Shown here piece by piece: positions 1,761 through 27,993 of a DNA stretch of 34,265 bases; the first letter of the stretch is position 1, and each line of letters starts with the position of its first letter. The DNA comes from an uncultured Bacilli bacterium (GTDB taxonomy: Bacteria; Bacillota_I; Bacilli_A; RF39; UBA660), in the NCBI GenBank assembly GCA_947626115.1, contig CANQQX010000013.1:1-34265 (forward strand). The letters run 5' to 3'. Position numbers and translations under genes: made by a program. Under the pieces are notes generated by a model that saw only the letters and a program-made list of their open reading frames with translations, searched no databases and was not told the DNA's origin.

Positions 1761-4034
1761 ATGAAAGCAGAAGTAGGTAACGATTTAATCGTTGTTAAAA
1801 GAAGTGGGCAAAGAGTCCCTTTTAATGAAGCAAAAATAGCTTTGGCTATCAAAAAAGGCTTTGATAGTGTTTATGAAAACTATGATGAAAAAATAGTTAA
1901 CAAAGTTAAAGAAAAAGTTGCAAAGTATATTGAAAAAGAATATCAAGAAAGAAAAACAATTGGTATTGAAGAAATTCAAGATATTATTGAAAAAGAACTT
2001 AAAAAAACAGATGAAGCAGTTTATAAATCTTTCTCAGAATATAGAGAAAGAAGAGCAGCGTCAAGAGAAGCATTTGTTGTAAAGCAACAACATAAATTTG
2101 TTAAAGCAATTGAATCTTTAGGATTAAAATCAGCAAAAGAAGAAAACTCTAAAAGAGAAAATGCTAATGTTGACGGTGATGGCCCAATGGGTACAATGTT
2201 ACACTTTGGTTCAACTGTATCAAAAGAATTTGCGAAAGCTTATTTAATGGATGCAAAATATGCAAGAGCCCATGATGAAGGCGCTATTCATATTCACGAT
2301 TTAGATTTTCTAGCGATGGGCACAACAACTTGTAATCAAATCGATTTGGAAAAATTATTCAAAAATGGTTTTTCCACTGGACATGGTTTTTTAAGAACTC
2401 CAAATGATATTATGAGTTATACAGCGCTTGCAGCCATTTGTATTCAAGCCAATCAAAATGATCAACATGGTGGACAAAGTATTCCAATGTTTGATTATTA
2501 TATGGCTCCAGGTGTTAAGAAAACATTTAAAAAGCAATTAAAACAAATGTTATATGATTACTTAGATTTAGAAGGTTTCCTTGGGGAAATAGATTTTGAT
2601 AAAGTAGTTGAGAAAATAAATGAACTTGATTCTATTGAAATACCTGTAGTAGATACCTTTAAAGAATTTATTACAAGTGAAAGATTAGAAGAGTTATTTA
2701 CTAAATCTTATGATAAAGCTTTAGCTAAAACAGACAGAATTACTTATCAAGCTATGGAAGCATTTATTCATAATTTAAATACAATGCATTCAAGAGCTGG
2801 TGCTCAAGTACCATTCTCATCAGTTAACTTTGGTACTGATACTTCACCAGAAGGCAGAATGGTTATGAAGAATTTCTTACTAGCTACAGATGCTGGTCTT
2901 GGTCAAGGTGAAACACCAATATTCCCAATTTCTATTTTCAAATTAAAAGAAGGTGTCAGTTATAACAAAGAAGATCCTAACTATGATTTATTCAAACTAG
3001 CTTGTAAAGTATCAGCAAAAAGATTATTTCCTAACTTCTCATTCTTAGATTCATCTTTTAATAAACCATATTTAAAAGAAGGAGATCCGAAGACAGAAGT
3101 TGGTTATATGGGTTGTCGTACGAGAGTTATTGGTAACATTTGCTATCCTGATAAACAAATTACCCCAGGAAGAGGAAACTTATCATTTACGACCATTAAC
3201 CTACCTAGAATTGGTATTAAACATGGTATTGCTCTAGGTGAAAGAGATAAAGCTGACATGAAAGGATTTTACGAAGAACTTGATGAAATGTTAGATTTAT
3301 GTAAAGGCCAATTATTACAAAGATTTGATATTCAATGTAGTAAAAGTGTTAATAACTTTAAATTCTTATTAGGTTCTCATGTATGGCTTGATTCCGAAAA
3401 ATTAGAACCAGGTCAAAAAATTAGAAAGATTTTAAAACATGGTACATTATCAATCGGATTTATTGGCCTTGCTGAATGTTTAAAAGCTTTAATTGGTGAA
3501 CATCATGGTGAATCAGAGAAAGCCCAAAAATTAGGTTTAGAGATTATTAAGCATATGAGAGATAAATGTGATGAGTATTCTGAAGAAATGAAATTAAACT
3601 TTACTTGTCTTGCAACACCAGCAGAAGGATTATCAGGAAGATTTGTTGGTATTGATAGATCAATTTATGGCAAGTTAAAAGGTATAACAGATCGTGAATA
3701 TTATACTAATTCATTCCACGTTCCAGTATACTATCATACAACTATTGAACATAAACTAGAAGTGGAAGGAAAATATCATAAATTAACTAATGCAGGTCAT
3801 ATATCTTATATCGAGATAGATGGTGATACTGCAAATAATGTCGAAGCATTTGAGAAAATTATTCGGATAATGCACGATAATGATATTGGTTATGGTGCCG
3901 TTAACCACCCAGTAGATCGTGATCCAGTTTGTGGTTATGTCGGTGTTATAAATAATGTATGTCCAAGATGTGGCAGACATGATTTTGAAGGGGTACCGGT
4001 TGAAACAATTAGTCATCTAGATTGTAATTGCTAA
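1761..4034 (+). CDS. nrdD: Anaerobic ribonucleoside-triphosphate reductase, catalytic body (lacks C-terminal glycyl radical motif)
   Basis: N-terminal ATP-cone (VVKRSGQRVPFNEAKI), NrdD core (HIHDLDFL, HGGQSIPMFDYYMAPG), C-terminal CPRCG; ends ...SHLDCNC without the RxxGYL motif. Confidence 0.93.
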   Translation: MKAEVGNDLIVVKRSGQRVPFNEAKIALAIKKGFDSVYENYDEKIVNKVKEKVAKYIEKEYQERKTIGIEEIQDIIEKELKKTDEAVYKSFSEYRERRAASREAFVVKQQHKFVKAIESLGLKSAKEENSKRENANVDGDGPMGTMLHFGSTVSKEFAKAYLMDAKYARAHDEGAIHIHDLDFLAMGTTTCNQIDLEKLFKNGFSTGHGFLRTPNDIMSYTALAAICIQANQNDQHGGQSIPMFDYYMAPGVKKTFKKQLKQMLYDYLDLEGFLGEIDFDKVVEKINELDSIEIPVVDTFKEFITSERLEELFTKSYDKALAKTDRITYQAMEAFIHNLNTMHSRAGAQVPFSSVNFGTDTSPEGRMVMKNFLLATDAGLGQGETPIFPISIFKLKEGVSYNKEDPNYDLFKLACKVSAKRLFPNFSFLDSSFNKPYLKEGDPKTEVGYMGCRTRVIGNICYPDKQITPGRGNLSFTTINLPRIGIKHGIALGERDKADMKGFYEELDEMLDLCKGQLLQRFDIQCSKSVNNFKFLLGSHVWLDSEKLEPGQKIRKILKHGTLSIGFIGLAECLKALIGEHHGESEKAQKLGLEIIKHMRDKCDEYSEEMKLNFTCLATPAEGLSGRFVGIDRSIYGKLKGITDREYYTNSFHVPVYYHTTIEHKLEVEGKYHKLTNAGHISYIEIDGDTANNVEAFEKIIRIMHDNDIGYGAVNHPVDRDPVCGYVGVINNVCPRCGRHDFEGVPVETISHLDCNC

Positions 4035-4059
4035 AATAAGATAAGGAGGAGGAAATATT

Positions 4060-4233
4060 ATGGAAGCAGTTAAAAAAGTAAAAATGGTTGGTGAAGGAGT
4101 TGGATTTGAAAGAATCCGTCGTATTACAGGTTATCTAGTTGGTACAACAGAAAGATTTAATAATGCTAAAAAAGCTGAAGAAAAAGATCGTGTTAAACAT
4201 ACACTAAGCGAAAAAGTTAATCATACAGCATAG
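4060..4233 (+). CDS. Small protein carrying the NrdD-type glycyl radical motif (57 aa); not in supplied ORF track
   Basis: MEAVKKVKMVGEGVGFERIRRITGYLVGTTERFNNAKKAEEKDRVKHTLSEKVNHTA; own SD AAGGAGGAGG; GYL..RFN..K..E..RVKH matches the C-terminal segment of full-length NrdD. Confidence 0.85.
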   Translation: MEAVKKVKMVGEGVGFERIRRITGYLVGTTERFNNAKKAEEKDRVKHTLSEKVNHTA

Positions 4234-4244
4234 TTGGTGTTAAA

Positions 4245-4799
4245 ATGACAATTAGACTCGCAGCACCACTTCAAAGTGATAGTGTTGTCGATGGCTTTGG
4301 CATAAGGACAGTTATATGGACACAAGGTTGTTCTCATGATTGTCCTTTTTGTCAAAATCCCCAAACACATGATTTTGAAGGTGGAGAAGAAGTAGACGTT
4401 AAAGACGTTCTAACAGAACTTGATAATTTACGCAACCAAGAAGGAATTACTTTAAGTGGAGGAGATCCTCTATTTCAAATTGAACCTGTGGTAGAAATTG
4501 CGAAACATGCCAAAGAAATTGGCTTAAATGTTTGGTGTTATACCGGATTTACTTATGAAAAAGTATTAGAAATGGGAAAAAAGAATCCGAAATATTTAGA
4601 GCTTTTAAATTATTTAGATGTTTTAGTTGATGGTAGATTTGAAATTGCTAAAAAAGATTTAAATCTTTTATTTAGGGGATCAAGTAATCAAAGACTTATC
4701 AATGTACCAGAAACTTTAAAACAAAATAAAATAGTCATAATACCAGAAAGTGATGGTATTATTGATAGTTTTAAAAATAAAAATAAATTATATATATAA
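4245..4799 (+). CDS. nrdG: Anaerobic ribonucleotide reductase-activating protein (radical SAM)
   Basis: CSHDCPFC (CxxxCxxC), TLSGGDPLFQ; adjacent to nrdD. Confidence 0.93.
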   Translation: MTIRLAAPLQSDSVVDGFGIRTVIWTQGCSHDCPFCQNPQTHDFEGGEEVDVKDVLTELDNLRNQEGITLSGGDPLFQIEPVVEIAKHAKEIGLNVWCYTGFTYEKVLEMGKKNPKYLELLNYLDVLVDGRFEIAKKDLNLLFRGSSNQRLINVPETLKQNKIVIIPESDGIIDSFKNKNKLYI

Positions 4800-12020: not shown

Positions 12021-12055
12021 AAAAAATGGTAAAGTTTATTCTTTATCATTTTTTT
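12021..12055. terminator. Bidirectional terminator between convergent ileS and rhuM-fic
   Basis: AAAAAATGGTAAAG-tttatt-CTTTATCATTTTTT. Confidence 0.7.
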
Positions 12056-12995
12056 CATCCTGTAAAAAATGCATTATTAAATTTATCATTATTTCTTTTT
12101 CTTTAGGATTAGATTCCGCAATTAAAAGAGTTATTGATGTAAGAGTATTATTATCAATTACTTGTATTCCATTTTGATATAAAATATTATTAATTTGTAA
12201 AAAGTAAATAAAAATAGTTGCTGCTATTCTTTTATTACCATCAATAAATGCATGATTTTTAATCGTTAAATATAGTAAATTAGCAGCTTTTTCTTCAATA
12301 GTAGGATAAACATCTATATTACCAAAAGATGCATAAATATCATTTATAATTGATTGAAAATTATTATCTCTTTCTAAAGCAAATAAACTAGATTCATTAT
12401 TAAACCTTAATTTATTTATTATTTCTAAACATTCTTCATAAGTTATAACTATACTGCCTTTTTGACCTTTAATTTTTCTAATTGCTTGGTGATCATAATC
12501 ATCTAATAATTTTAAGGCTTTAGTATATTTGTTAATAACACTTAAAATATCTTTGGCTTCATCACCAGTAATGCTGTCTTTACTTCTATTGGCAATATCT
12601 ATAAGTTTAATAGTTTTCTCTAAATAATCTAATCTTTTTTGATTAATAGCATAACCTTTTAACATATAATCTTTTAATATTTTTGTTGCCCATCTTCTAA
12701 AGAGAATACCATTTTGGCTTTTGACACGATAACCGACTGAAATAATCATATCTAGGTTATAATGGAGTACTTGATAGTTTTTTCCATCTTTTGCAGTATG
12801 CTCAAAAAATGAGCATACTGCATTTTCTTCTAATTCTCCATCTTTATATATGTTTTGAATATGTCTTGTGATAGTTTTTCTATCTTTATTAAATAAAACA
12901 GCCATTTGAGCTTGCGTAAGCCATACGGTTTCATCTTTAATATTCACTTCTAATCTTACTTTTTGATTTTGAAATAAAACAATTTCGTTTTCCAT
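12036..12995 (-). CDS. RhuM-like N-terminus fused to Fic/Doc-type C-terminal domain
   Basis: IVLFQNQKVRLEVNIKDETVWLTQAQMAVLFNKDRKTITRHIQNIYKDGEL...FRRWATKILKDYMLKGYAIN (RhuM); NHAFIDGNKRIAATIFIYFL (HxFxDGNKR Doc-type motif). Confidence 0.88.
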   Translation of the reverse strand: MENEIVLFQNQKVRLEVNIKDETVWLTQAQMAVLFNKDRKTITRHIQNIYKDGELEENAVCSFFEHTAKDGKNYQVLHYNLDMIISVGYRVKSQNGILFRRWATKILKDYMLKGYAINQKRLDYLEKTIKLIDIANRSKDSITGDEAKDILSVINKYTKALKLLDDYDHQAIRKIKGQKGSIVITYEECLEIINKLRFNNESSLFALERDNNFQSIINDIYASFGNIDVYPTIEEKAANLLYLTIKNHAFIDGNKRIAATIFIYFLQINNILYQNGIQVIDNNTLTSITLLIAESNPKEKEIMINLIMHFLQDEKNDKE

Positions 12996-16028: not shown

Positions 16029-17081
16029 ATGAATGTAATAGGTCAAAATTTAAAAAGAATTAGATTATTAAAAAATCTATCATTAAAAGAAGCTGGTATT
16101 TTATTAAATATGTCTGCTCCTGCAGTGGCTAAATATGAAAAAGGACAAATAAATCCTAATTCGGAAAAATTAATTGAATTTGCTAAAGCATATAATGTTA
16201 AAACTATTGAATTATTAAAGAGTTATAATACTCCTGATATGAAGTTTACTTCATTTAGGAAAAGAAAAAGATTAACAGGTCAAAATTTAGAATTATTAAA
16301 AGAAGTAATTTTAAATGAAGTGGCAAAATATTTAGAAGTTATGGAAATAAATAATATTGATGATAAATATAATAAAATAAAAAAATATAATTGTAATTCT
16401 TTAGAAGAAGCTGAAGATGCTGCCATAAAATTTAGAAATGATATAAAATATTCAATGATTCAACCTATATCTGATCTAATTAATACTTTAGAAAATTTAG
16501 GAATTATTATAATTCAAATAGAGAATTATAATAACAAATTTAATGATTTTGATGGCTTAAGTGAATTTGTTAATAATATACCAATTATAGTATTATTAAA
16601 TAATATTAATGATGGAGCAAGACAAAGATTTACTATTGCTCATGAACTAGGTCATTTACTTTTAAATATTAATAATAAAAAAATAGATGAAGAAAAATTA
16701 TGTAATAGATTTGCTAGTAGTTTGTTAATGCCCAAAGAAGCCGTAATAAATGAATTTGGTATTTCAAGAAATAATATTAGTTTATATGAATTAATGGTTT
16801 TTAAAAATGAATATAAAGTAAGTATTGCATCTACTTTATATAGATTAAAAGATTTAAATATTATATCTGAATATACATATAAAAATTTATGTATTAAAAT
16901 AAATAAAAAATATGGTAAAAAAAATGAACCAATATTAATTTCACCAGAGAAATCATATCAATTTAGAAAAATAGTTCATAGATTAGAAACAGATAATATT
17001 ATATCACTTAATAAAGCATGTGAATTTTTAGGAGAAACAATAAATGAATATAACAACGAAAATGATAATTACGGATACTAA
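16029..17081 (+). CDS. XRE-family HTH + ImmA/IrrE zinc metallopeptidase
   Basis: N-terminal HTH (IGQNLKRIRLLKNLSLKEAGILLNMSAPAVAKYEKGQINP); FTIAHELGHLLL (HExxH). Confidence 0.9.
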   Translation: MNVIGQNLKRIRLLKNLSLKEAGILLNMSAPAVAKYEKGQINPNSEKLIEFAKAYNVKTIELLKSYNTPDMKFTSFRKRKRLTGQNLELLKEVILNEVAKYLEVMEINNIDDKYNKIKKYNCNSLEEAEDAAIKFRNDIKYSMIQPISDLINTLENLGIIIIQIENYNNKFNDFDGLSEFVNNIPIIVLLNNINDGARQRFTIAHELGHLLLNINNKKIDEEKLCNRFASSLLMPKEAVINEFGISRNNISLYELMVFKNEYKVSIASTLYRLKDLNIISEYTYKNLCIKINKKYGKKNEPILISPEKSYQFRKIVHRLETDNIISLNKACEFLGETINEYNNENDNYGY

Positions 17082-17562
17082 TATAATTACTGATTTAAAT
17101 AATGGTGAAGTATTAGAAGAATTTGTAAAATTAGATAATGTTTATATAAGTGATTTAATAAAATATGATGAAATTAATAGTAATACAGGGAATATTAAAA
17201 TTATAAATAAAATTAAAGTAATTAATGCTACAGCAGAAGAATTAAATGAAATTAGTTTAATAAGACAAGAAAGATCTAAATTATCTACTTATGATGCACT
17301 TAATTTTATTATTGCTAGAGATAATAAATGTATTTTAGCCACTGGTGATAATGAATTAAAAAAATATGCTCTAAAACACGGAGTAGAAGTTATTAGGACT
17401 TTAAAAATAATAGAATTGATGGTAGAAAATAAAGTTATTACTTATAAAAAAGGAATAAATGCTTGTAAGTTAATTAAGAATTGTCCCACAACGAGAATTC
17501 CCAAAAATGCTATTGATGAATTAATAATGAAACTAGAAAAAGAAGTATTAGTTAAACAATAA
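17062..17562 (+). CDS. PIN-domain-like protein, partner of the XRE-ImmA gene (ORF track start 17044)
   Basis: MIITDTNIITDLNNGEV... with downstream LSTYDALNFIIARDNKCILATGDNELKKYA; acidic-residue spacing typical of PIN; start overlaps upstream gene. Confidence 0.72.
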   Translation: MIITDTNIITDLNNGEVLEEFVKLDNVYISDLIKYDEINSNTGNIKIINKIKVINATAEELNEISLIRQERSKLSTYDALNFIIARDNKCILATGDNELKKYALKHGVEVIRTLKIIELMVENKVITYKKGINACKLIKNCPTTRIPKNAIDELIMKLEKEVLVKQ

Positions 17563-17650: not shown

Positions 17651-17681
17651 TGCCTTATAAAAGTAAAGGAATGTATAGTTG

Positions 17682-19301
17682 ATGGAAGAAAATAATAATG
17701 AGAAAAAGAGACAAGTAAGACTAGCTATAATTGGAGTAACTGCATTATTGTTATTAACACTGGGAGCAACATTTGCCTTCTTTTTAATAGATACAGATAG
17801 TAGTACAAGTAAATCAAGTATTAAAAGTGATATTGAAAATATTGATAGTATAGCACTTCAAAAAGTAACAGATAACTTACATGTTAATTTAAGTGCAGCA
17901 GATATGGCTGAAGCAAATAAAAATACTGAATACTTTGGTGATGATGAAGCAGATTATGTAAAAACACTAGATGAAGGAATGCATAATTTAGGTAAGTTAA
18001 CTGCAACAGGTGGTAATGGAAAAACCAAATATATGTGTACAGCAAATGCGGTAATAACTATGCAAGTAGCAAATGAAACAGATATGGGTAAGTTTTTCAA
18101 TACAGGAGATGCTTATTTATATTTAAATGCTGGTTCATTACAACAAAGAATAGACTTAAGTGAATTAAAGGAAAGCGGAACAATGACTATACCATTTGAA
18201 ATAGGAATAACAAGTGAAAGTGAAAGACAAATAGATGGATATGTCGAAATAATAAACACATCATCAGATCAAACATATTTAGCAAATAAAACATTAAATA
18301 TCGATGTAACATTCCAAGATTTAGAATGTAATGTTGGAGTATCAGAAGTAGAGACAATTTTAAGAAAAAATGACAAAGAAAGCAAATTAACAACTAATTT
18401 AGTAAATGGCTTATATAGATATCAAGGTAATTCAATAGTAACAAATTTAGATACATATGATAGAGAAGATACAGTAAATGATAATTATATCTGTTTAGGA
18501 AGCGATTGTTCTACTGCAGAAAGTAATGATATGTTTAGAATACTTGGAGTATCAGAGGATGGAATAATAAAAGTCATCAAAAATACACCTATAGAACAGA
18601 AATTACAATGGTGGACAGATAATAAAACAGATATTAAATGGCCAGAAAGTTTAGCATATAAATATTTAAATAATGAATATTATAATGAATTATCAGTAAA
18701 TCTAAAAAATCAAATATTAGAAACAATCTGGAAATATGGAATTGTAAATGACGAATCAATATCAGAAGAGAATCAATCAAAGATGAATCAACTATGGGAA
18801 AGTTTGAATCAATTATGGGAAAGTGAAGTACCAACTGATGATGAATTGAGGCCTATATTAATAGAAATTACAAAATTATATGTTCAACAATATTTAAAAG
18901 CCGAATCAGAATTAACTAACAAAACAATAGGAAAGATAAGCTTAATGAATATAGCAGATTATTGTAGCAGTTTTGAAAGTAATACTAATGTAAATTGTGG
19001 TAGTTCGGGAATTAATTTAGACAGTTTAGATAATCCTCTTACAAGTGATGCTGGTATGTCTTGGTTAACACCTCACTCTGATGTAGTTGAGAATACAGCG
19101 ACTTATTCAGGTATTGATGATTCTGATCCTTATAGTATTCATAGGCAAGGTTTTGTTATACTACCAAATGGCGATACTTCAATAGGTGATTCCCCTTTTG
19201 ATGATGATGTCTCATCCCGTCCAGTCTTCTTCTTAACAAGTGATATCGAATTATCTGGTGAAGGAACAATAGAAAGCCCATTTACAATAGGAATTGAATA
19301 A
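17682..19301 (+). CDS. Exported protein with SipW/TasA-like N-terminus and C-terminal RPVFFL-type domain
   Basis: RQVRLAIIGVTALLLLTLGATFAFF resembles TasA/camelysin-type signal regions; C-terminal SSRPVFFLTSDIELSGEGTIESPFTI. Confidence 0.7.
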   Translation: MEENNNEKKRQVRLAIIGVTALLLLTLGATFAFFLIDTDSSTSKSSIKSDIENIDSIALQKVTDNLHVNLSAADMAEANKNTEYFGDDEADYVKTLDEGMHNLGKLTATGGNGKTKYMCTANAVITMQVANETDMGKFFNTGDAYLYLNAGSLQQRIDLSELKESGTMTIPFEIGITSESERQIDGYVEIINTSSDQTYLANKTLNIDVTFQDLECNVGVSEVETILRKNDKESKLTTNLVNGLYRYQGNSIVTNLDTYDREDTVNDNYICLGSDCSTAESNDMFRILGVSEDGIIKVIKNTPIEQKLQWWTDNKTDIKWPESLAYKYLNNEYYNELSVNLKNQILETIWKYGIVNDESISEENQSKMNQLWESLNQLWESEVPTDDELRPILIEITKLYVQQYLKAESELTNKTIGKISLMNIADYCSSFESNTNVNCGSSGINLDSLDNPLTSDAGMSWLTPHSDVVENTATYSGIDDSDPYSIHRQGFVILPNGDTSIGDSPFDDDVSSRPVFFLTSDIELSGEGTIESPFTIGIE

Positions 19302-19352
19302 GTAAATAAAAGGTCTAAATAAAATTTAATAATTTTAAAAACAAATGTACTA

Positions 19353-19380
19353 AAAAATGCTAAAAATTAGCATTTTTTTC
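19353..19380. terminator. Terminator-like hairpin
   Basis: AAATGCTAA-aaa-TTAGCATTTTTTT. Confidence 0.75.
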
Positions 19381-19401
19381 AATTTTTTGTGAAAATTTTC
19401 A

Positions 19402-19446
19402 TGAAAAAAAAGGAAATCGGCAAAAAAAAGCAAATAATATATATAG
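19402..19446 (+). promoter_or_regulatory. Shared promoter-like element (copy 2, upstream of C39 ABC exporter)
   Basis: GAAAAAAAAGGAAATCGGCAAAAAAAAGCAAATAATATATATAG-AAGGAGG; same AAAAAAAAGGAAAT + AT-alternating block as copies 1 and 3. Confidence 0.5.
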
Positions 19447-19461
19447 AAGGAGGAAAAAATA

Positions 19462-21519
19462 ATGCGTAAATCCAAAGCTATTATTCAACATGATTTTAAA
19501 GATTGTGGCGTTACTTGTATGCAATGGATAATCATCTATTATGGTGGTTATATATCTTTAGAAAAACTAAGAGAAGATACCCTTACAGATAGTAATGGAA
19601 CGAATGCTTATCAAATAGTTACTGCTTTTAAGAAGTGGGGATTTGATGCAAAGGGGATTTTGGTGCATGACTTGACAAAAGACGTTAAGTTTCCATTAAT
19701 TGCCCATATGGAACTAGATAATGGTTTAGAGCATTTTGTCGTTGTTAAAGAATGTCTTAATGATACTGTGTACTTAATGGATCCAGGTATCGGTAATATT
19801 AAGATGACTTTAGCAAAATTTAACAAATTATTTACCGGACATATTATTTTAGTATATCCAAGAGATAACATTGTTAAAATGGATAAAGGCATAACTATTT
19901 CTAAATTATTTTTAAACATCATTAGTAAGGAAAAGTTTCTCATTGTAAAAATAATTTTAACTAGTTTAGTATGGACAATACTTTCTATAATAAGCAGTTA
20001 TTATTTGAAAGCAGGTAGTAATCTTCTTGATTATAATCTTTATTTATTAAAATGTTTTGTTGTTTCCTTTGGGATTATAACTTTACTTAAAGTTTTATCA
20101 TTATATATTCGCGAGTATTTTGAAAATCATTTAAGTAACTTAGTAGATACATACATTTACCCAGAATTTTTAAGACACTTATTTTATCTTCCTTCAAAAG
20201 TCATTAAGAGTCGTAGTACAGGAGAAATAGTAACAAGAATAAGTGAGCTATCCAACATTAAAAGTTTATTTTCTGATATCTTTATCTCTTGTTTCTTAGA
20301 CTCTTTGATGGCTATTATATCTATAGTAATATTATTTATGATAAATCATAGTCTTTGTTATATTTTAATCATCTGTATTGTTATTTATACTATTTATAGT
20401 ATTATCATAAGTAAAATTATCTATAAAAAAGTATTAGAGAATATTAATTATCAAACAGAATTTAATAGTTTAACAATTGAAAATATTTCCATGTTTGATA
20501 GTATTAAGAATTTAAATATAACTGATAATATATTAATTAAATTAGAAAAGAGTTTAGCTAATTATTTATTTGATAATTATCATTTTAATAGTTTTTTTAA
20601 TCTTTCTAATTTAGGTAAAGACTTTTTACTAGAGATGTGTTTATTTATTATTAATTCTTATGGCTTCTATAACATATTAAATGGTAATCTTACTATAATA
20701 GATTTATTTACATTTAATTTAATATTGGCATATTTTATTGATCCAATTAAAAATATTATTAGTATTTTACCAAAATATAATTATGTTAAAGCATCATTTA
20801 CCAAGATAAGTGAATTTATTAATCTTGATGAAGAAGAAATAAAGGAAGATAATAATTTACTTAAAGGAGATATCTGTTTTAAAAATGTAAGTTACTCTTA
20901 TAATAATTATAATAATGTTATAGATAATTTAAGTTTTAATATAAAAAGTGGTGAGCATACTTTATTAAATGGTATATCTGGATCAGGTAAAAGTACCATA
21001 TGTAAGCTTTTATATAAAGAAAATTATAATTATCAAGGTGAAATATTAATTGATAATTGTAATATTAAAGATTTAAGTTTAGGAAGTATTAGAGATAGTA
21101 TTTTATATGTATCACAAAATGAAGAATTATTTACAGGTTCCATTAAAGATAATATTTTAATGGGAAGAGATGTGCCAGATAATTTATTTCAAGATGTAGC
21201 AAATATTTGTGAACTTGAAAGCATCGTTAGTAAAAAAAGTATGCGTTATGATTCTTTAGTAGAAGTTTCGGCTAAAAATATATCTGGTGGTGAAAAACAA
21301 CGAATAATTTTAGCCAGAGGTTTACTTAAGAATGCTAATATTATTATTTTAGATGAAGCCTTATCCGAAGTAGATAAAGATTTAGAAAGCAAAATTATTA
21401 AAAATATTAAGAAATATTTTCATGATAAAACCATTATTTATATATCTCATAAAAATCAAACTCGCAATTTTAATCACATTATCAATTTAGGAGAGAAAAA
21501 TGAATTACTTTCAAGTTAA
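19462..21519 (+). CDS. Peptidase-containing ABC transporter (C39 bacteriocin-processing exporter)
   Basis: C39: HDFKDCGVTCMQWIIIYYGG, GLEHFVVVKE, MDPG; ABC: Walker A GISGSGKST, ISGGEKQR, IIILDEALS. Confidence 0.95.
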   Translation: MRKSKAIIQHDFKDCGVTCMQWIIIYYGGYISLEKLREDTLTDSNGTNAYQIVTAFKKWGFDAKGILVHDLTKDVKFPLIAHMELDNGLEHFVVVKECLNDTVYLMDPGIGNIKMTLAKFNKLFTGHIILVYPRDNIVKMDKGITISKLFLNIISKEKFLIVKIILTSLVWTILSIISSYYLKAGSNLLDYNLYLLKCFVVSFGIITLLKVLSLYIREYFENHLSNLVDTYIYPEFLRHLFYLPSKVIKSRSTGEIVTRISELSNIKSLFSDIFISCFLDSLMAIISIVILFMINHSLCYILIICIVIYTIYSIIISKIIYKKVLENINYQTEFNSLTIENISMFDSIKNLNITDNILIKLEKSLANYLFDNYHFNSFFNLSNLGKDFLLEMCLFIINSYGFYNILNGNLTIIDLFTFNLILAYFIDPIKNIISILPKYNYVKASFTKISEFINLDEEEIKEDNNLLKGDICFKNVSYSYNNYNNVIDNLSFNIKSGEHTLLNGISGSGKSTICKLLYKENYNYQGEILIDNCNIKDLSLGSIRDSILYVSQNEELFTGSIKDNILMGRDVPDNLFQDVANICELESIVSKKSMRYDSLVEVSAKNISGGEKQRIILARGLLKNANIIILDEALSEVDKDLESKIIKNIKKYFHDKTIIYISHKNQTRNFNHIINLGEKNELLSS

Positions 21520-21913
21520 TTATTATCGTTTAAGAAATTTATCCCAAAAACATCTTTTTGCTATAATCATTCTTATTATAATAATTGGGATTTTTATTTT
21601 AGGATTTAGTTATTTTAAAGTAGTTAGTAGAAAATATAATTGTTATGGTATTTATCAAAATAATTTGTTAAATATAAAAGTTATGCAAGATAAAATAGAT
21701 ATATTTAAAGATAATAAAGAACTTGTTTTTAATAATCATAAAGTAGCATATAAAATTAAAAATATGGGTGAATATGAATTAATAGATAATAAGATTTATC
21801 AGAATATTTATCTTACTATAGATGGTAATGTTTATGATAATGAAGTAGGAGAAGTTGAAATTTATTATCGTAAAGAAAAATTAATAAAATTTATTTTTGA
21901 ATTATTTAAGTAA
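21500..21913 (+). CDS. Short membrane protein; candidate mini accessory (membrane-fusion-like) or immunity protein
   Basis: 137 aa; NYYRLRNLSQKHLFAIIILIIIIGIFILGF then short beta-rich extracytoplasmic part; overlaps exporter gene. Confidence 0.55.
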   Translation: MNYFQVNYYRLRNLSQKHLFAIIILIIIIGIFILGFSYFKVVSRKYNCYGIYQNNLLNIKVMQDKIDIFKDNKELVFNNHKVAYKIKNMGEYELIDNKIYQNIYLTIDGNVYDNEVGEVEIYYRKEKLIKFIFELFK

Positions 21914-21927
21914 AGGAGGTAATAGTA

Positions 21928-22077
21928 ATGGAACTTAATAATGAAGAAATGATGAATGTTAAAGGAGGCGCAATTAGTTTTAATATTGCGGCATTGATAA
22001 CTGGTATAGCCACTGGTGTCGTAACCTTTTTGGTTGGAGTTTTTGATGGATTTTTAAATCCTAATAAATGTAAGTAG
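21928..22077 (+). CDS. Double-glycine-leader peptide 1 (49 aa precursor), not in supplied ORF track
   Basis: MELNNEEMMNVKGG|AISFNIAALITGIATGVVTFLVGVFDGFLNPNKCK; SD AAAGGAGG; GxxxG (GIATG). Confidence 0.87.
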   Translation: MELNNEEMMNVKGGAISFNIAALITGIATGVVTFLVGVFDGFLNPNKCK

Positions 22078-22085
22078 GAGTATCT

Positions 22086-22247
22086 ATGTTAAGTAATGAA
22101 GAATTAATGGAAGTAAAAGGTGGTTCAGTAACCGGTGCTTTAGTTTCAGCATTAGTTACATTAATGGATTCTATTTTTGATTTGGGTAGATCCCTTGGAA
22201 CATCTATTAAAAGAGTAGTGTCAAAAAAATATTGTAAAATGAATTAG
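22086..22247 (+). CDS. Double-glycine-leader peptide 2 (53 aa precursor), not in supplied ORF track
   Basis: MLSNEELMEVKGG|SVTGALVSALVTLMDSIFDLGRSLGTSIKRVVSKKYCKMN; SD TAGGAG; GxxxG (GRSLG). Confidence 0.87.
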   Translation: MLSNEELMEVKGGSVTGALVSALVTLMDSIFDLGRSLGTSIKRVVSKKYCKMN

Positions 22248-22271
22248 TATTTACAATTAGTTTATTTTTAG

Positions 22272-22300
22272 TTGTCAAACCATTAGTGAAGTGTTATAAT
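22272..22300 (+). promoter_or_regulatory. Predicted sigma-A promoter for rpsU
   Basis: TTGTCA, 17-bp spacer, TATAAT. Confidence 0.7.
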
Positions 22301-22333
22301 AATTCTTAGAAAAAACGCGAAGGGAGGGCGATT

Positions 22334-22519
22334 ATGACAAAGGTTGTAGTTAATGGCAATATTGATGCTGCTTTAAGAAAATTTAAAGTAAAAGTTGCTA
22401 GAAGTGGTGTCCCTTCAGAACTTAAAAAGAAAAAATTTCATATTAAACCAGGAGTTGAAAGAAGAATCAAAAAAGAAGAAGGCATTAAAAATTCTCATAA
22501 GAGAAATCGTTATAATTAA
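22334..22519 (+). CDS. rpsU: 30S ribosomal protein S21
   Basis: 61 aa basic protein with S21 pattern (ALRKFKVKVARSGVPSELKKKKFHIKPGVERRIK). Confidence 0.93.
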   Translation: MTKVVVNGNIDAALRKFKVKVARSGVPSELKKKKFHIKPGVERRIKKEEGIKNSHKRNRYN

Positions 22520-22533
22520 GGAGGCAAAAAATT

Positions 22534-22971
22534 ATGTTTGCAAAAATTAATACCGATTTAATGAATGCTTTAAAATCCGGTGATAAATTTAAATTGTCTG
22601 TTCTAAGAATGTTAAAAAGTGCTTTACAACTTGAATCAATTAATAATAAAAAAGAATTAACTGATGAAGTTGTTATAAGTGTTTTAAAAAGACAAGTTAA
22701 ACAAAGAAATGATTCCATAAAAGAGTATGAAGAATTAGGTAAAGAAGAAGTAGTTAATGATTTAAAACATGAAATAGAAATTATTAATGAATATTTACCA
22801 GAAGAAGCCAGTGGCGAAGAAATACAAAAAGTAATAGATGAAGCTTTTCAAGAATTAAATCCAACTAGCATGAAAGACATGGGAAAAGTTATGAAATTTG
22901 TAACTGAACACTTAGCTAATGCTGACATGAGTAAAGTAAGTGCTCTTGTCAAAAATAAACTAAATAGTTAA
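22534..22971 (+). CDS. yqeY: GatB/YqeY domain protein
   Basis: DLMNALKSGDKFKLSVLRMLKSALQLESI...INEYLPEEASGEEIQKVI; follows rpsU as in many Firmicutes. Confidence 0.92.
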   Translation: MFAKINTDLMNALKSGDKFKLSVLRMLKSALQLESINNKKELTDEVVISVLKRQVKQRNDSIKEYEELGKEEVVNDLKHEIEIINEYLPEEASGEEIQKVIDEAFQELNPTSMKDMGKVMKFVTEHLANADMSKVSALVKNKLNS

Positions 22972-23000
22972 AGATCGATTGAAAAACATCGGTCTTTTTT
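22970..23000 (+). terminator. Rho-independent terminator after yqeY
   Basis: AAAGATCGAT-tgaaaaac-ATCGGTCTTTTTT. Confidence 0.75.
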
Positions 23001-23011
23001 GTAATTTGTTC

Positions 23012-23039
23012 TTGATTCTCGGGGGGGGTATATTATAAT
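23012..23039 (+). promoter_or_regulatory. G-tract promoter P2 (G8 in spacer)
   Basis: TTGATT-CTC-GGGGGGGG-TATAT-TATAAT; spacer 16 bp. Confidence 0.8.
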
Positions 23040-23066
23040 AATCTTATAATAAGAAGGTTATTATAG

Positions 23067-24560
23067 ATGAAGAGAGTAATAAAAAATAATTACAAAATAA
23101 TAATTGGTATCTTAATAGGTGTTATATTATCAGTAACAACAGTATATGCAATTGATGCCTATATCGAAAGTAATAAAGTAGCCTATAATAATCATAATAA
23201 AAGTAATGTCGAAGAAGCCATAGATGAACTATATGAACGAAGTGGTATACATAAAGATAAATGGATAGATCCAGTACTTAATGGAGCAGATCCAGTATTA
23301 AAAGATCCATTAATACCAGTAGAAATAAAACCAAATGGTGATGTGTATTATGCAAGTTTAAATAGTGAATGGTATAACTATAGTGAAAAGAAATGGGCCA
23401 ATGCCGTAATACTAATAGATAATCCAAGTAATACAAATTATAAAGAAGGAGATCACATAATAGAAGATGATATTGAAAGTTATTTTGTCTGGATACCAAG
23501 ATATCAATATAAGATATGGACTTTAGCAAATAGTGAAGAATATACAAATGTAATAGATGGAAGTACATTAGTAAATGGAAGTTATGCTACATCCCCAACG
23601 CAAGTTTTAAATAAATCAATAATAATAGATATAAAATTTGGAACAATTAATGATATACCAATGATGTCAGAAAGTGAAGCTACGATTGGGAAATATTATA
23701 CTCATCCAGCATTTACCTTAGGAAATAAAGATTTAAATGGCTTTTGGATAGGTAAATTTGAAACAGGATATAAAGGAGCAGATAGTACTACTAGTGCTCA
23801 AGTAGATAGCGAAGAAAAAAATAGTGTCATAATAAAGCCAGATGTGTATTCATGGCGGGGAATTAAAGTTAAAAATATGTATATGACATCATATAATTAT
23901 GAAAGAGATTTAGATAGTCATATGTTAAAAAATGTTGAATGGGGAGCAGTAGCGTATTTATCACACTCAATATATGGTATTGGAAATGAAATAAAAATAA
24001 ATAATACAGCTGATTTTAAAACTGGCTATGTAACAGCACCAAATATTAAGCAAATTTCTCGTTTGGGAATTTGTGTAGCAAGTACTGATGAAACTCAAAC
24101 CCAACCATGGAATACATCAACTGGTTATTTGGGGACGACAACCGGTAATATAAGCGGGGTGTATGATATGAGTGGTGGTAGCTGGGAACATGTGGCAGGA
24201 TGTATTGAAGGATTAGTTGGCTATAGTGGCTTTGATACTACAACCTTAGCAAATGAAATGGCTAAAGGATATATTGACAAATATCCTATTAATAGTACTG
24301 AAACATCTTATAATAATAGAATAATCGGAGATGCGACAGGCGAGATGGGACCATTCTACCAATATTTCGATGTTAGTGAACTTAATAGTTATCATAATAG
24401 TTGGTATGCTGATTGGTCTTACTTTATTAAATCGACGACTTCCTGGTTTGGACGAGGTGGATCTAGTTGTGATGGTGGAGTAGCAGGTCAATTTTACTTC
24501 TATGGTAATCCTGGTGGAGCACTTTCTAATGTTTCTTTTCGCATAGCTCTTGCATTATAA
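23067..24560 (+). CDS. Exported protein with C-terminal SUMF1/C-type-lectin-like fold
   Basis: N-terminal TM (YKIIIGILIGVILSVTTVYA); YFVWIPRYQYKIW; GVYDMSGGSWEHVAG; WFGRGGSSCDGGVAGQFYFYGNPGGALSNVSFRIALAL. Confidence 0.75.
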   Translation: MKRVIKNNYKIIIGILIGVILSVTTVYAIDAYIESNKVAYNNHNKSNVEEAIDELYERSGIHKDKWIDPVLNGADPVLKDPLIPVEIKPNGDVYYASLNSEWYNYSEKKWANAVILIDNPSNTNYKEGDHIIEDDIESYFVWIPRYQYKIWTLANSEEYTNVIDGSTLVNGSYATSPTQVLNKSIIIDIKFGTINDIPMMSESEATIGKYYTHPAFTLGNKDLNGFWIGKFETGYKGADSTTSAQVDSEEKNSVIIKPDVYSWRGIKVKNMYMTSYNYERDLDSHMLKNVEWGAVAYLSHSIYGIGNEIKINNTADFKTGYVTAPNIKQISRLGICVASTDETQTQPWNTSTGYLGTTTGNISGVYDMSGGSWEHVAGCIEGLVGYSGFDTTTLANEMAKGYIDKYPINSTETSYNNRIIGDATGEMGPFYQYFDVSELNSYHNSWYADWSYFIKSTTSWFGRGGSSCDGGVAGQFYFYGNPGGALSNVSFRIALAL

Positions 24561-24627
24561 TAATAAAAAATAAAGTAAAATTATATTCATTTTCAAAAAA
24601 TCTCTTGTTAAAAAAATTATGTGGCAC

Positions 24628-24655
24628 TTGACTCTTGGGGGGGGTATACTATAAT
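24628..24655 (+). promoter_or_regulatory. G-tract promoter P3 (G8 in spacer)
   Basis: TTGACT-CTT-GGGGGGGG-TATAC-TATAAT; spacer 16 bp. Confidence 0.8.
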
Positions 24656-24683
24656 AATCTTATAATAATATAGGAGAGTCAGT

Positions 24684-26441
24684 ATGGAAGAAGAAATAAA
24701 AAATAATGAGAATAATAAGAAACAAAGAGTAACATTACTTATAGGATTAGTAACTTTATTAATAGCAGTACTAGGAGCAACATATGCATACTTTCAAATA
24801 AGTGCAAATACAGAAAACAATAATACCAATATAACAGGAAAAACACCAGATAAGAGTTTAGTAACATTAAAACAAGTAACAAGTAACTTACACTTAAATA
24901 TAAGTGCAAGTGATATGTCATATGAAAATAGAACACATGAATACTATGCAACAGCTGGAGAAGATCCATATGTAGGAACAGAAGAATTAGGAACAAAGAC
25001 AATAGCATCAATAGAACTAACTGGTGGAGAAGAGACAACAAGATATAGTTGTACAGCGAAGTTAACTGTATCCAAAGTAATGGATGAATCTAATCCAGAT
25101 ACAATGATAGAAGTATTACAACCAGGAGATATAATATTACAATTTAAAGGGAACTTAATAAATGAACAACTAGATTTAAATGAATTAAAAGAAAATAATC
25201 CAAAGGAATATAATTTAAGTTTTAAAGTAAAAGGGAATAGTCCAGAAGAAATCCAAGCCTATATAAAATTTTTAAATAAGGATGAGAATCAAAATTATTT
25301 AGCAGGTCGTAAATTAAATATAGATATAAATATAGATAACTTAAAATGTGAAGTATATGTAGAACATCCAACAGTAGCAAAGTTAAGAGTAGATGATGAA
25401 CAAGGATACTTAAGTGAAGATATACAAGGAGATATGTATAGATATCAAGGAACAGGAGATATAACAAATTGGATATGTTTTGGAACAGATAACAAAGAAG
25501 AGTGTACCAATGATAAAGATCATTATATGTACAGAATAATAGGGATAACACCAGAAGGAGAAATGAAGTTAATTAAACAAACACCAGTAGTAGAAGAAGG
25601 CAATAAAATATTTAGTTGGTTTAAAGCAACTGGAACAGATGAAAATGGAAATACCTTATATGGAACAGCTGAAAAAGGCTTTGAAACATGGCCAGATAGT
25701 TTGATATACAAAAGATTAAATGGATTAAGCAATGGAAAAATAACTGGTGATGGTGCAAATCATAAAAAAAGTTCAAATCCAAATATAAATGTCGATACAG
25801 ATATATTTGTAGATAGTAGTGAATATGAATATTTAAAATCAGGAGATGAAAATGGTACAAATGATGGAATAGGAAGTGAATGGTATAAAATAATATCAGA
25901 TCATGAATGGATGTATGGAGATACAGAGGATTCATTTAATTTCAATGGTCACGAAATGTATAAAGCAGAGACAGGCCAAATAGAAACAAGATATAATTAC
26001 TTTGATAGTGAAACAAGTACATATAAAAGTGGAACATATACATGGAATAAAGAAACAGATAAAGTAACAGCAAAGATAGGGTTACCATATTTATATGATT
26101 TTTATCTTGCATATTATGATGGAGAAACAGAAGATACGCGAGGTAATCCTGGAGTAAGTTCATTAGGTGAAAATTGGCTATTAAAAATTGGACCGAATGA
26201 AGATCATGTAAAAGCTGTGATGGAGCGATGTACGAAAATTTCTGGTGCGCCATTACCTAATACTTGGGCTGCCTTCAGAAGTGTATGGTCAGCTTCAGGT
26301 GAAGACGGTCTATGTAATATTATAGATTCTGTCACTTACACTGGTACTGGGTTACAACATTTTCCAACATTCTATCTTCCAAATACAATAGAAATGGAAG
26401 GAACCGGAATAGAAACAGATCCATATCGAATTGTTAATTAA
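24684..26441 (+). CDS. Exported protein with SipW/TasA-like N-terminus; C-terminal domain paralogous to 26578 gene
   Basis: RVTLLIGLVTLLIAVLGATYAYFQISANTENN; GDMYRYQGTG...YICFG/WICFGT...HFPTFYLPNTIEMEGTGIETDPYRIVN. Confidence 0.75.
   Translation: MEEEIKNNENNKKQRVTLLIGLVTLLIAVLGATYAYFQISANTENNNTNITGKTPDKSLVTLKQVTSNLHLNISASDMSYENRTHEYYATAGEDPYVGTEELGTKTIASIELTGGEETTRYSCTAKLTVSKVMDESNPDTMIEVLQPGDIILQFKGNLINEQLDLNELKENNPKEYNLSFKVKGNSPEEIQAYIKFLNKDENQNYLAGRKLNIDINIDNLKCEVYVEHPTVAKLRVDDEQGYLSEDIQGDMYRYQGTGDITNWICFGTDNKEECTNDKDHYMYRIIGITPEGEMKLIKQTPVVEEGNKIFSWFKATGTDENGNTLYGTAEKGFETWPDSLIYKRLNGLSNGKITGDGANHKKSSNPNINVDTDIFVDSSEYEYLKSGDENGTNDGIGSEWYKIISDHEWMYGDTEDSFNFNGHEMYKAETGQIETRYNYFDSETSTYKSGTYTWNKETDKVTAKIGLPYLYDFYLAYYDGETEDTRGNPGVSSLGENWLLKIGPNEDHVKAVMERCTKISGAPLPNTWAAFRSVWSASGEDGLCNIIDSVTYTGTGLQHFPTFYLPNTIEMEGTGIETDPYRIVN
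25430..26441 (+). repeat. Paralogous cassette copy A
   Basis: Extended similarity with 26991-27993 at DNA and protein level (e.g. DHEWMYGDTEDSFNFNGHEMYKAETGQIET.YNYFDSETSTYKSGTYTWNKETDKV). Confidence 0.85.
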
Positions 26442-26446
26442 ATAAT

Positions 26447-26485
26447 AAAATCACATTTCTAAAAATAAAGAAGTGTGATTTTTTA
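26447..26485 (+). terminator. Terminator-like hairpin
   Basis: AAAATCACATTTC...GAAGTGTGATTTTTT. Confidence 0.65.
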
Positions 26486-26523
26486 TTTTTACAGATTTTC
26501 TGCTAAATTAATTTTTGATTCTA

Positions 26524-26551
26524 TTGACTCTCGGGGGGGGTATATTATAAT
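26524..26551 (+). promoter_or_regulatory. G-tract promoter P4 (G8 in spacer)
   Basis: TTGACT-CTC-GGGGGGGG-TATAT-TATAAT; spacer 16 bp. Confidence 0.8.
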
Positions 26552-26577
26552 AATCTTATAATAATAGGAGAGTCAGT

Positions 26578-27993
26578 ATGAAAATAAGTAAAAATAAAAA
26601 ATATATTATGGTAGTTTTAATAATATTATTTATAGTAACAATTGTAAGTATTAAAAGTTTAATGAAAGATAATAATAAATCATTACCAGAAACAAATGAA
26701 ATAAATAATCTTAAAAGATTTGCAGTAATGGTTCAAAATGAAACAGGATATGAAGAATATATAAGTAAAGATAATAAATGGCCCAGTGAAGGATATAAAT
26801 TTAAAGAAGCAAAATGTGTAGATAATAAAGGAAGTAAAATAGATAGTAATATAGTAAAATACAATAATGGAAAAGTAACATTAACAACAAATAAGACAGT
26901 ATATTGTACATTATACTTTGATAAAAAGACAACAATAAGTGCGTTAGATATAGTAGCAAGTAAACCAAAGAGTTTAAGTCCAAATCCAGACCAAGGGGAT
27001 ATGTATAGATATCAAGGGACAAGTGAGTTAGTAAATGATAACTACATATGCTTTGGCACAAAAGAAAAGTCAGAATGTACAAATGATGAAGATCATTATA
27101 TGTACAGAATAATCGGAATAACACCAGAAGGAAAAATGAAACTCATAAAACAAACACCAGTAGTAGAAGAAGGTAATACAGTATTTAGTTGGTATAAAGT
27201 AACAGTAACAAATGATAGTGGACAATCATTATATGGAACAGCAGAGAAAGGATTTGAAACATGGCCAGAAAGTTTAATATACAAAAGATTAAACGGATTA
27301 AGTAATGGAAAAATAACTGGTAGTGGTGAAAATATTAGCAGTAATAGTACAAACAAAAATACAAATGCTGATACAAACATATTTGTAGATAGTTATACAA
27401 ATGAATATCCATATATGAAAAGAGAAAGTGAATGGTATAAAAAAATAGCAGATCACGAATGGATGTATGGAGATACAGAAGATTCATTTAATTTCAATGG
27501 TCATGAAATGTATAAAGCAGAAACAGGTCAAATAGAAACAAAATATAATTACTTTGATAGTGAAACAAGTACATATAAAAGTGGAACATATACATGGAAT
27601 AAAGAAACAGATAAAGTGCCAGCAAAAATAGCATTACCATATTTATATGATTTTTATCTTGCGTATTATGATGGAGAGACAGAAGAAACACGTGGGATTC
27701 CAGGAACTGAATCATTAGGTGAAAACTGGATATTAAAAATTGGACCGAATGAAACTCATATCAAAGCTGTAATGGAGCGATGCACGAATGTGTCTGGATC
27801 ACGTTTACCACATGCTTTTACTGCCTTCAGAAATGTATGGTCAACATCAGGTGAAGACGGTTAATGTAGTCTTAGTGATGTCAGTGCTTCCAATGGTAAG
27901 GGTTTGCGCCATTTTCCAACATTCTATCTTCCAAACACAATTGAAATGGAAGGAACTGGAATAGAAACTGATCCATATAGAATTTTAAACTAA
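26578..27993 (+). pseudogene. Exported paralogue interrupted by one in-frame TAA (27862-27864); ORF 26578-27864, homology continues in the same frame to TAA at 27991-27993
   Basis: After the stop the same frame reads CSLSDVSASNGKGLRHFPTFYLPNTIEMEGTGIETDPYRILN*, collinear with the 24684 gene C-terminus. Confidence 0.82.
26991..27993 (+). repeat. Paralogous cassette copy B
   Basis: See copy A 25430-26441. Confidence 0.85.

Follow-up and report, generated by a model that had tools for sequence, protein, structure and literature searches.

Ribonucleotide reductase (RNR) is an essential enzyme, and the stretch of 34,265 nucleotides from an uncultured Bacilli bacterium analysed here (the window) raises the question of how its class III form is encoded. 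The nrdD gene of the window stops short of the glycyl-radical motif, and a 57-aa ORF bearing such a motif lies between it and nrdG. Either a normal gene has been broken, or the enzyme is made of two chains. From the comparisons described below we conclude, with a probability of about 0.87, that the class III ribonucleotide reductase encoded at this locus consists of two chains, of which the small one would carry the radical glycine.

All three genes lie on one strand, with gaps of 25 nt between the nrdD body and the small ORF and of 11 nt between the small ORF and nrdG; the small ORF is in frame +1 relative to the body (Table 1). Scanning the locus for promoters and terminators gave sites no commoner than in shuffled sequence. 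The body matched the ATP-cone of Pfam (1.8e-14) and the NRDD profile PF13597 over positions 1-533 of 562 (6.7e-187). It scored 995.8 bits against NCBIfam PRK07111 (cut-off 764) and aligned with the solved NrdD of P. copri (8p23; 1.1e-173) as far as chain residue 708. This 757-aa NrdD breaks off after the zinc finger and before the glycyl-radical loop, and the glycyl-radical motif, missing from the body polypeptide, was found on the separate small chain. Cys452 in the MGCR loop was invariant in 50 homologues (alignments A2 and A3). In P. copri NrdD, Cys416 is the radical cysteine and Gly711 the radical glycine (PMC11226230). The nrdG product matched TIGR02491 (5.8e-45, 153 bits, cut-off 126.1), and nrdG was found downstream of nrdD and the small ORF in nearly all loci.

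Table 1. Features of the split nrdD locus, in positions of the window
Feature	Position	Strand	Basis or remark
nrdD body, 757 aa	1761..4034	+	ORF and Pfam; ends in ...CPRCGRHDFEGVPVETISHLDCNC and stop
Body features: ATP-cone (aa 10-99), NxN flap (NAN, aa 134-136), ten-stranded barrel, zinc finger			
Codon of putative radical cysteine Cys452 (MGCRTR)	3114..3116	+	Counterpart of Cys416 in P. copri NrdD
Zinc-finger segment with three cysteines (C724, C734, C737)	3930..3971	+	
Body C-terminal tail, RHDFEGVPVETISHLDCNC and stop	3975..4034	+	Repeats small-protein strand GEGVGFERI
Shine-Dalgarno (SD) sequence AAGGAGGAGG of small ORF	4043..4052	+	
57-aa glycyl-radical protein, proposed name NrdD-gly	4060..4233	+	ATG at 4060, own SD
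Codon of Gly24, predicted radical glycine	4129..4131	+	Alignment to Gly711 of P. copri NrdD
nrdG, 184 aa, radical-SAM activase	4245..4799	+	TIGR02491

Several other features of the window were seen in passing. Large predicted surface proteins with shared segments and no Pfam match (17679, 24684, 26578) occupy positions 17679-27864, adjoined by a C39-peptidase ABC transporter (19462-21519). At 16029-17562 a gene for an HTH and IrrE-like peptidase protein overlaps a weakly PIN-like gene, forming a toxin-antitoxin-like pair, and at 12036-12995 on the minus strand a Fic/DOC domain is joined to a RhuM N-terminal region.

The small ORF matched the same NRDD family, PF13597, over profile positions 533-562 (E 4.2e-8, which passes the family cut-off), and residues 16-52 of its product aligned to residues 707-743 of the 8p23 chain, where that chain ends; residue numbers in the 8p23 chain differ by 4 from those published for P. 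copri NrdD. The two alignments agree, and thus bear out the sequence-only reading, made from the window before any database search, that the 57-aa ORF is the C-terminal, glycine-bearing segment of NrdD. Judging from the alignments, the body and the small protein are complementary and meet exactly at the loop boundary. The loop of the small protein, RIRRITGYLVG, holds Gly24, and this residue was invariant in alignment A1. A protein of similar size, acting on the same working principle, could also serve a different glycyl radical enzyme as its spare part, as GrcA/YfiD does for pyruvate formate-lyase (PFL). The small protein, however, matched NRDD and gave no match to PF01228, the PFL-type Gly_radical family, of which no member was found in the window's genome either, and in nearly all loci the small ORF sits between nrdD and nrdG; we therefore regard a role as a PFL spare as highly improbable.

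The small ORF was then sought in other nrdD neighbourhoods, as the sequence-only reading had suggested. In total, 139 split genome loci were classified and the pair was measured in 126 distinct loci, 125 of them with a scorable start. Relative to the body, the small ORF of these 125 loci was in frame 0, 1 or 2 in 45, 49 and 31 cases, and the body ended in TAA, TAG or TGA in 65, 46 and 14. The two ORFs were 1 to 411 nt apart (median 22). The small ORF was preceded by an SD of four or more bases in 120 loci, and its start was ATG in 122; a methionine at this position was conserved in nearly all loci. With these frames, stops, gaps and SD sequences, neither one conserved frameshift nor stop readthrough can join the ORFs, and the earlier claim of a real stop followed by a real start, not a simple frameshift, is upheld. 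Recoding of some kind, by frameshift, readthrough or bypassing, might still yield one joined polypeptide, as the stop and the SD-like AAGGAGGAGG are close together and 45 of the 125 loci are in frame; given the three frames, the three stops, the range of gaps and the retained methionine, a spread that suits none of these mechanisms, we consider it very unlikely.

The window comes from a MAG of 1.27 Mb in 56 contigs, so a normal nrdD broken by a sequencing, assembly or simple frameshift artefact had to be considered. Such an error can hardly be entertained, as the 126 distinct split loci come from many projects, have separate SDs and show additional residues both before and after the break. The other genome available for the window's genus (G090) was also split, and with dozens of other split genomes this rules against a fused form masked by assembly error. 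Among 196 genomes sampled from the window's family, the glycyl segment was found in an ORF of 52-78 aa in 76 and at the end of an ORF of 775-814 aa in 20; one further case was cut by a contig end and one was ambiguous.

The split pair was found in Bacilli, Clostridia and Desulfovibrionaceae. In the Bacilli, the split loci belong to the window's family, one of them to Candidatus Pelethosoma. The clostridial loci are from Oscillospiraceae, Lachnospiraceae, Butyricicoccaceae and Anaerovoracaceae, and include the cultured Scatolibacter rhodanostii (L127) and Massiliimalia timonensis (L129). The order body, small ORF, nrdG is common to the Desulfovibrionaceae and the Clostridia.

Selection on the small ORF was estimated as dN/dS over its conserved 32-aa core. 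Split or prophage copies gave a pairwise Nei-Gojobori value of about 0.14 and phage copies one of 0.11, like the 0.105 of fused NrdD; the pairs are not independent. By these values the small ORF is under strong purifying selection. A second full-length nrdD, named beforehand as an observation that would speak against two chains, was sought in the window's genome and no other NrdD was found. In addition, the class I/II RNR domain PF02867 was absent from all 30 split genomes searched (the window's genome and 29 relatives). In the searches of the window's genome for NrdD, PF02867 and PF01228, control genomes responded as expected. As these searches revealed no further RNR there, the split pair should be the working RNR. 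A missed RNR is possible in one MAG that is 93% complete, but unlikely across 30 genomes.

One might argue that the enzyme is dead, with a body that no longer has its radical site and a small ORF left over as a remnant, as other genomes of the family hold a second, divergent fused NrdD of about 28% identity (L029, L069-L072 and L085-L092), which ends in TRRTCGYLGE or ARRTCGYIG. In the window's genome, however, no RNR besides the split NrdD was found, and together with the purifying selection on the small ORF this makes a dead enzyme most improbable. The two-chain reading, a catalytic body with a separately translated glycyl protein, is thus supported by its occurrence in three bacterial groups, by the frames and stops, by the SDs, by selection and by the lack of another RNR.

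A four-cysteine zinc site was not seen in the body. It has three cysteines (C724, C734 and C737, invariant in alignment A3), and the first of the usual four is replaced by Asp, likewise in the unsplit relatives. The sequence-only reading had suggested that the C-terminal DCNC of the body may complete the zinc site; this found no support, as the unsplit relatives have the same three-cysteine finger without the tail. Two cysteines within the last 8 residues were present in 53 of 80 short body tails and in 11 of 45 long ones, and with the finger of the unsplit relatives these counts led us to reject DCNC as a zinc ligand in general. The two terminal cysteines themselves (CxC or CC) lie at 4017-4031 in the window and recur in the short tails of its relatives. 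The window's genome lacks PFL-type glycyl enzymes, which puts the source of formate in doubt, and a thiol reductant is conceivable.

Split bodies continue past the zinc finger into a tail of the form RR-x-GEGV-P/S-x-E-K/R-L/I..., and in 129 of 134 loci, which are related to each other and do not amount to 134 independent tests, this tail aligned to GEGVGFERI of the small protein at one constant offset. The mean best 9-mer score between tail and small protein was 22.1, compared with 9.7 for shuffled tails. By this alignment, the strand that precedes the glycyl loop is now present twice, on the body tail and on the small protein. Similarly, cleaved PFL retains a strand that is also brought by YfiD, and truncation of the strand region of PFL blocks rescue (PMC8683613). 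We infer that the split probably arose from a pre-existing free copy of the glycyl domain, the body then losing its own loop.

Additionally, a structure was predicted for an artificial read-through chain of a close relative (L036), with its TAG read as Gln and a 50-row alignment that included fused homologues. The model had a pTM of 0.82 and 8p23 as its best PDB match. The tail was predicted as a helix (residues 758-765), the linker was disordered and the glycyl segment was placed at moderate confidence, with a pLDDT of about 69-82. Being a prediction for one joined chain, the model supports the NrdD fold, and not separate-chain assembly or docking in trans.

How often the fused and split states have replaced each other was examined next. 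NrdD is fused in the other families of the window's class, and unsplit NrdDs, 66-69% identical, are present in the window's own family. Clostridia and Desulfovibrionaceae were sampled via loci from a collection of named species. In the Clostridia sample, seven genomes were split and most matches were fused; in the Desulfovibrionaceae, stand-alone copies occurred in about 32 of 119 genomes, and a fused copy of the window's type in one; several of the stand-alone copies were checked and adjoin a split body. On a tree of 162 bodies, the fused and split labels required 12 changes, at least 7 of them forced by well-supported branches. A single split clade was rejected (p-AU 0.0006, 73-row subset). 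On the evidence of this tree, the state has changed repeatedly, via splitting, re-fusion or gene transfer. Instead of repeated splitting, the gene may have split once, long ago, and later been transferred and re-fused, as the shared tail EGV-x-x-E-K/R-L/I would allow.

Small glycyl proteins were also found without a neighbouring body. A scan of IMG/VR gave many stand-alone copies, 78 of 80 loci having no NrdD body directly upstream (a few have one farther off). In 40 whole viral records, which may be fragments, the small protein was alone in 38, and the other two (L233, L249) also encode a split-type body. The genes near two stand-alone copies were phage genes (terminase small subunit, exonuclease, DNA methyltransferase, PAPS reductase). 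Some cellular genomes with a split NrdD also carry further small copies outside the nrd operon (e.g. G766, L256 and L257). A split-type body and a small protein occur together on the viral contigs L233, L249, L176, L202 and L215, in some of them as far as about 2 kb apart. Eggerthella phage EL753P1 (OP172808, L293 700-4137) encodes an NrdD body that lacks a glycyl loop and whose radical-cysteine motif is interrupted by an intein-like insert (YMG/CADERE...SHN/CRTR); about 400 nt downstream there is a small glycyl ORF, the frame of which is interrupted within the motif in OP172808.

A second form of the small protein, of 89-101 aa, has a conserved N-terminal part of about 55 residues (…GGEMxQEEIxxYVxYL…IDGDxVDxxY…), followed by the same loop. 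This ~95-aa form was found between an intact fused nrdD and nrdG at L253 (+) and L254 (G606, G720), and in G231, G267, G291, G592 and G650 together with a fused NrdD elsewhere in the genome. It was also seen at L263, L274, L278-L280, L283-L285 and L243, in genomes and viral contigs. Beside an intact NrdD, the ~95-aa form fits a spare part in the sense of YfiD. Pfam, NCBIfam and PHROGs contain no dedicated family for either form; the matches there were to the tail end of NrdD models.

In the mechanism that we propose for the two-chain enzyme, the body would give the ATP-cone, the allosteric sites, the barrel, the radical cysteine Cys452 and the zinc finger, and the 57-aa protein would give the radical glycine Gly24 and the C-terminal tail. 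The small protein would dock in the barrel of the body, in place of the C-terminal loop of an ordinary NrdD. By the chemistry of class III RNR, NrdG would take a hydrogen from Gly24, and the glycyl radical so formed would oxidise Cys452 in trans, starting each turnover. In ordinary class III enzymes, the glycyl domain must flip out of the core for radical installation (PMC12662201), so a separate domain is mechanically plausible. The glycyl radical is the site at which class III RNR is cut by oxygen (PMC3019208), so the split enzyme would lose the small chain only. Oxygen damage would then cost a part of about 6 kDa, of which the cell or a phage could supply fresh copies.

Such exchange and repair would be the most likely and most attractive reason for the split and for the spread of the small protein in phages; the small protein could also be a fixed subunit without exchange. 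The benefit of two chains may, on the other hand, lie elsewhere than in oxygen repair, the fission being neutral or serving regulation through a nucleotide-state-controlled release and loading of the glycyl part. The frequent changes of state on the tree point that way, as does the glycyl domain of P. copri NrdD, which is mobile with dATP (PMC11226230), whereas S. thermophilus NrdD does not show dATP-dependent displacement of the domain (PMC12662201). Phages that keep the small part alone under purifying selection, and a ~95-aa version alongside an intact NrdD, are more easily understood if a replaceable part is being supplied than if fission is neutral. We take a benefit other than repair as a serious possibility, at somewhat under even odds. 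The full repair reading, in which anaerobes with a separate glycyl subunit, ~95-aa operon spares and phage copies that sustain or restore the nucleotide supply of the host would make up a spare-part system outside PFL, seems to us evenly balanced between right and wrong.

The split enzyme lends itself, as a system found in nature, to questions now debated for class III RNR: whether NrdG can activate the glycyl domain only once it has left the body, whether nucleotide state controls the position of this domain, a matter on which PMC11226230 and PMC12662201 disagree, and how an oxygen-damaged enzyme is renewed.

With the known class III NrdD/NrdG systems (P. copri, 8p23; S. thermophilus, 9d3x; T4, 1h78) the split enzyme shares the ATP-cone, the NxN flap, the barrel, the MGCRTR radical cysteine, the RRxTGYL glycyl motif and the adjacent nrdG. 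It differs from them in that the glycine is on a separate chain, the body ends past the zinc finger with an added tail, and the finger has three cysteines, not four. A natural two-chain catalytic component in a cellular genome is known from Pseudomonas aeruginosa, where NrdJa and NrdJb form a split RNR of class II; this enzyme uses a cobalamin radical, and its pieces do not part a radical-storing domain. RNR catalytic chains encoded in pieces are also known from phages, as nrdA-a/nrdA-b of Aeh1 and the broken nrdD of phiAS4 and of Lactococcus phage 949, which are described as cases in single phages, caused by introns, inteins or homing endonucleases or else by fragmentation of unexplained origin (PMC3653736). 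In contrast, the break described here is at the glycyl loop and conserved across many bacteria; no intron, intein or homing endonuclease was found at it, and the 25-nt gap holds the SD only.

Split RNR genes and stand-alone glycyl domains of PFL are thus already known. In open-licence papers, we found intron, intein or fragment cases in phages only, and no account of an NrdD divided in this way, of its glycyl domain as a detached protein or of NrdD spares in phages; the detached, conserved NrdD glycyl-loop protein appears to be undescribed in that literature. An RNR survey removed sequences below 400 residues (PMC9531940); with this cut, and with no dedicated family, length-filtered surveys will miss the small proteins. 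Validated spare parts are YfiD and Y06I only, and spares for other glycyl radical enzymes have been posed as a question (PMC8683613); the split loci offer candidates for a non-PFL enzyme, in bacteria and in phages.

The PFL spares YfiD/GrcA and T4 Y06I likewise consist of a free-standing C-terminal glycyl domain, with a strand present on both partners (PMC8683613). Here the family is NrdD, and the split body has no glycyl loop of its own, which would make the small protein obligatory. The analogy with YfiD/GrcA drawn in the sequence-only reading consequently holds for the working principle and not for a spare in the strict sense; the true spare arrangement, and the nearer parallel to YfiD/GrcA, is the ~95-aa form beside an intact NrdD at L253 and L254.
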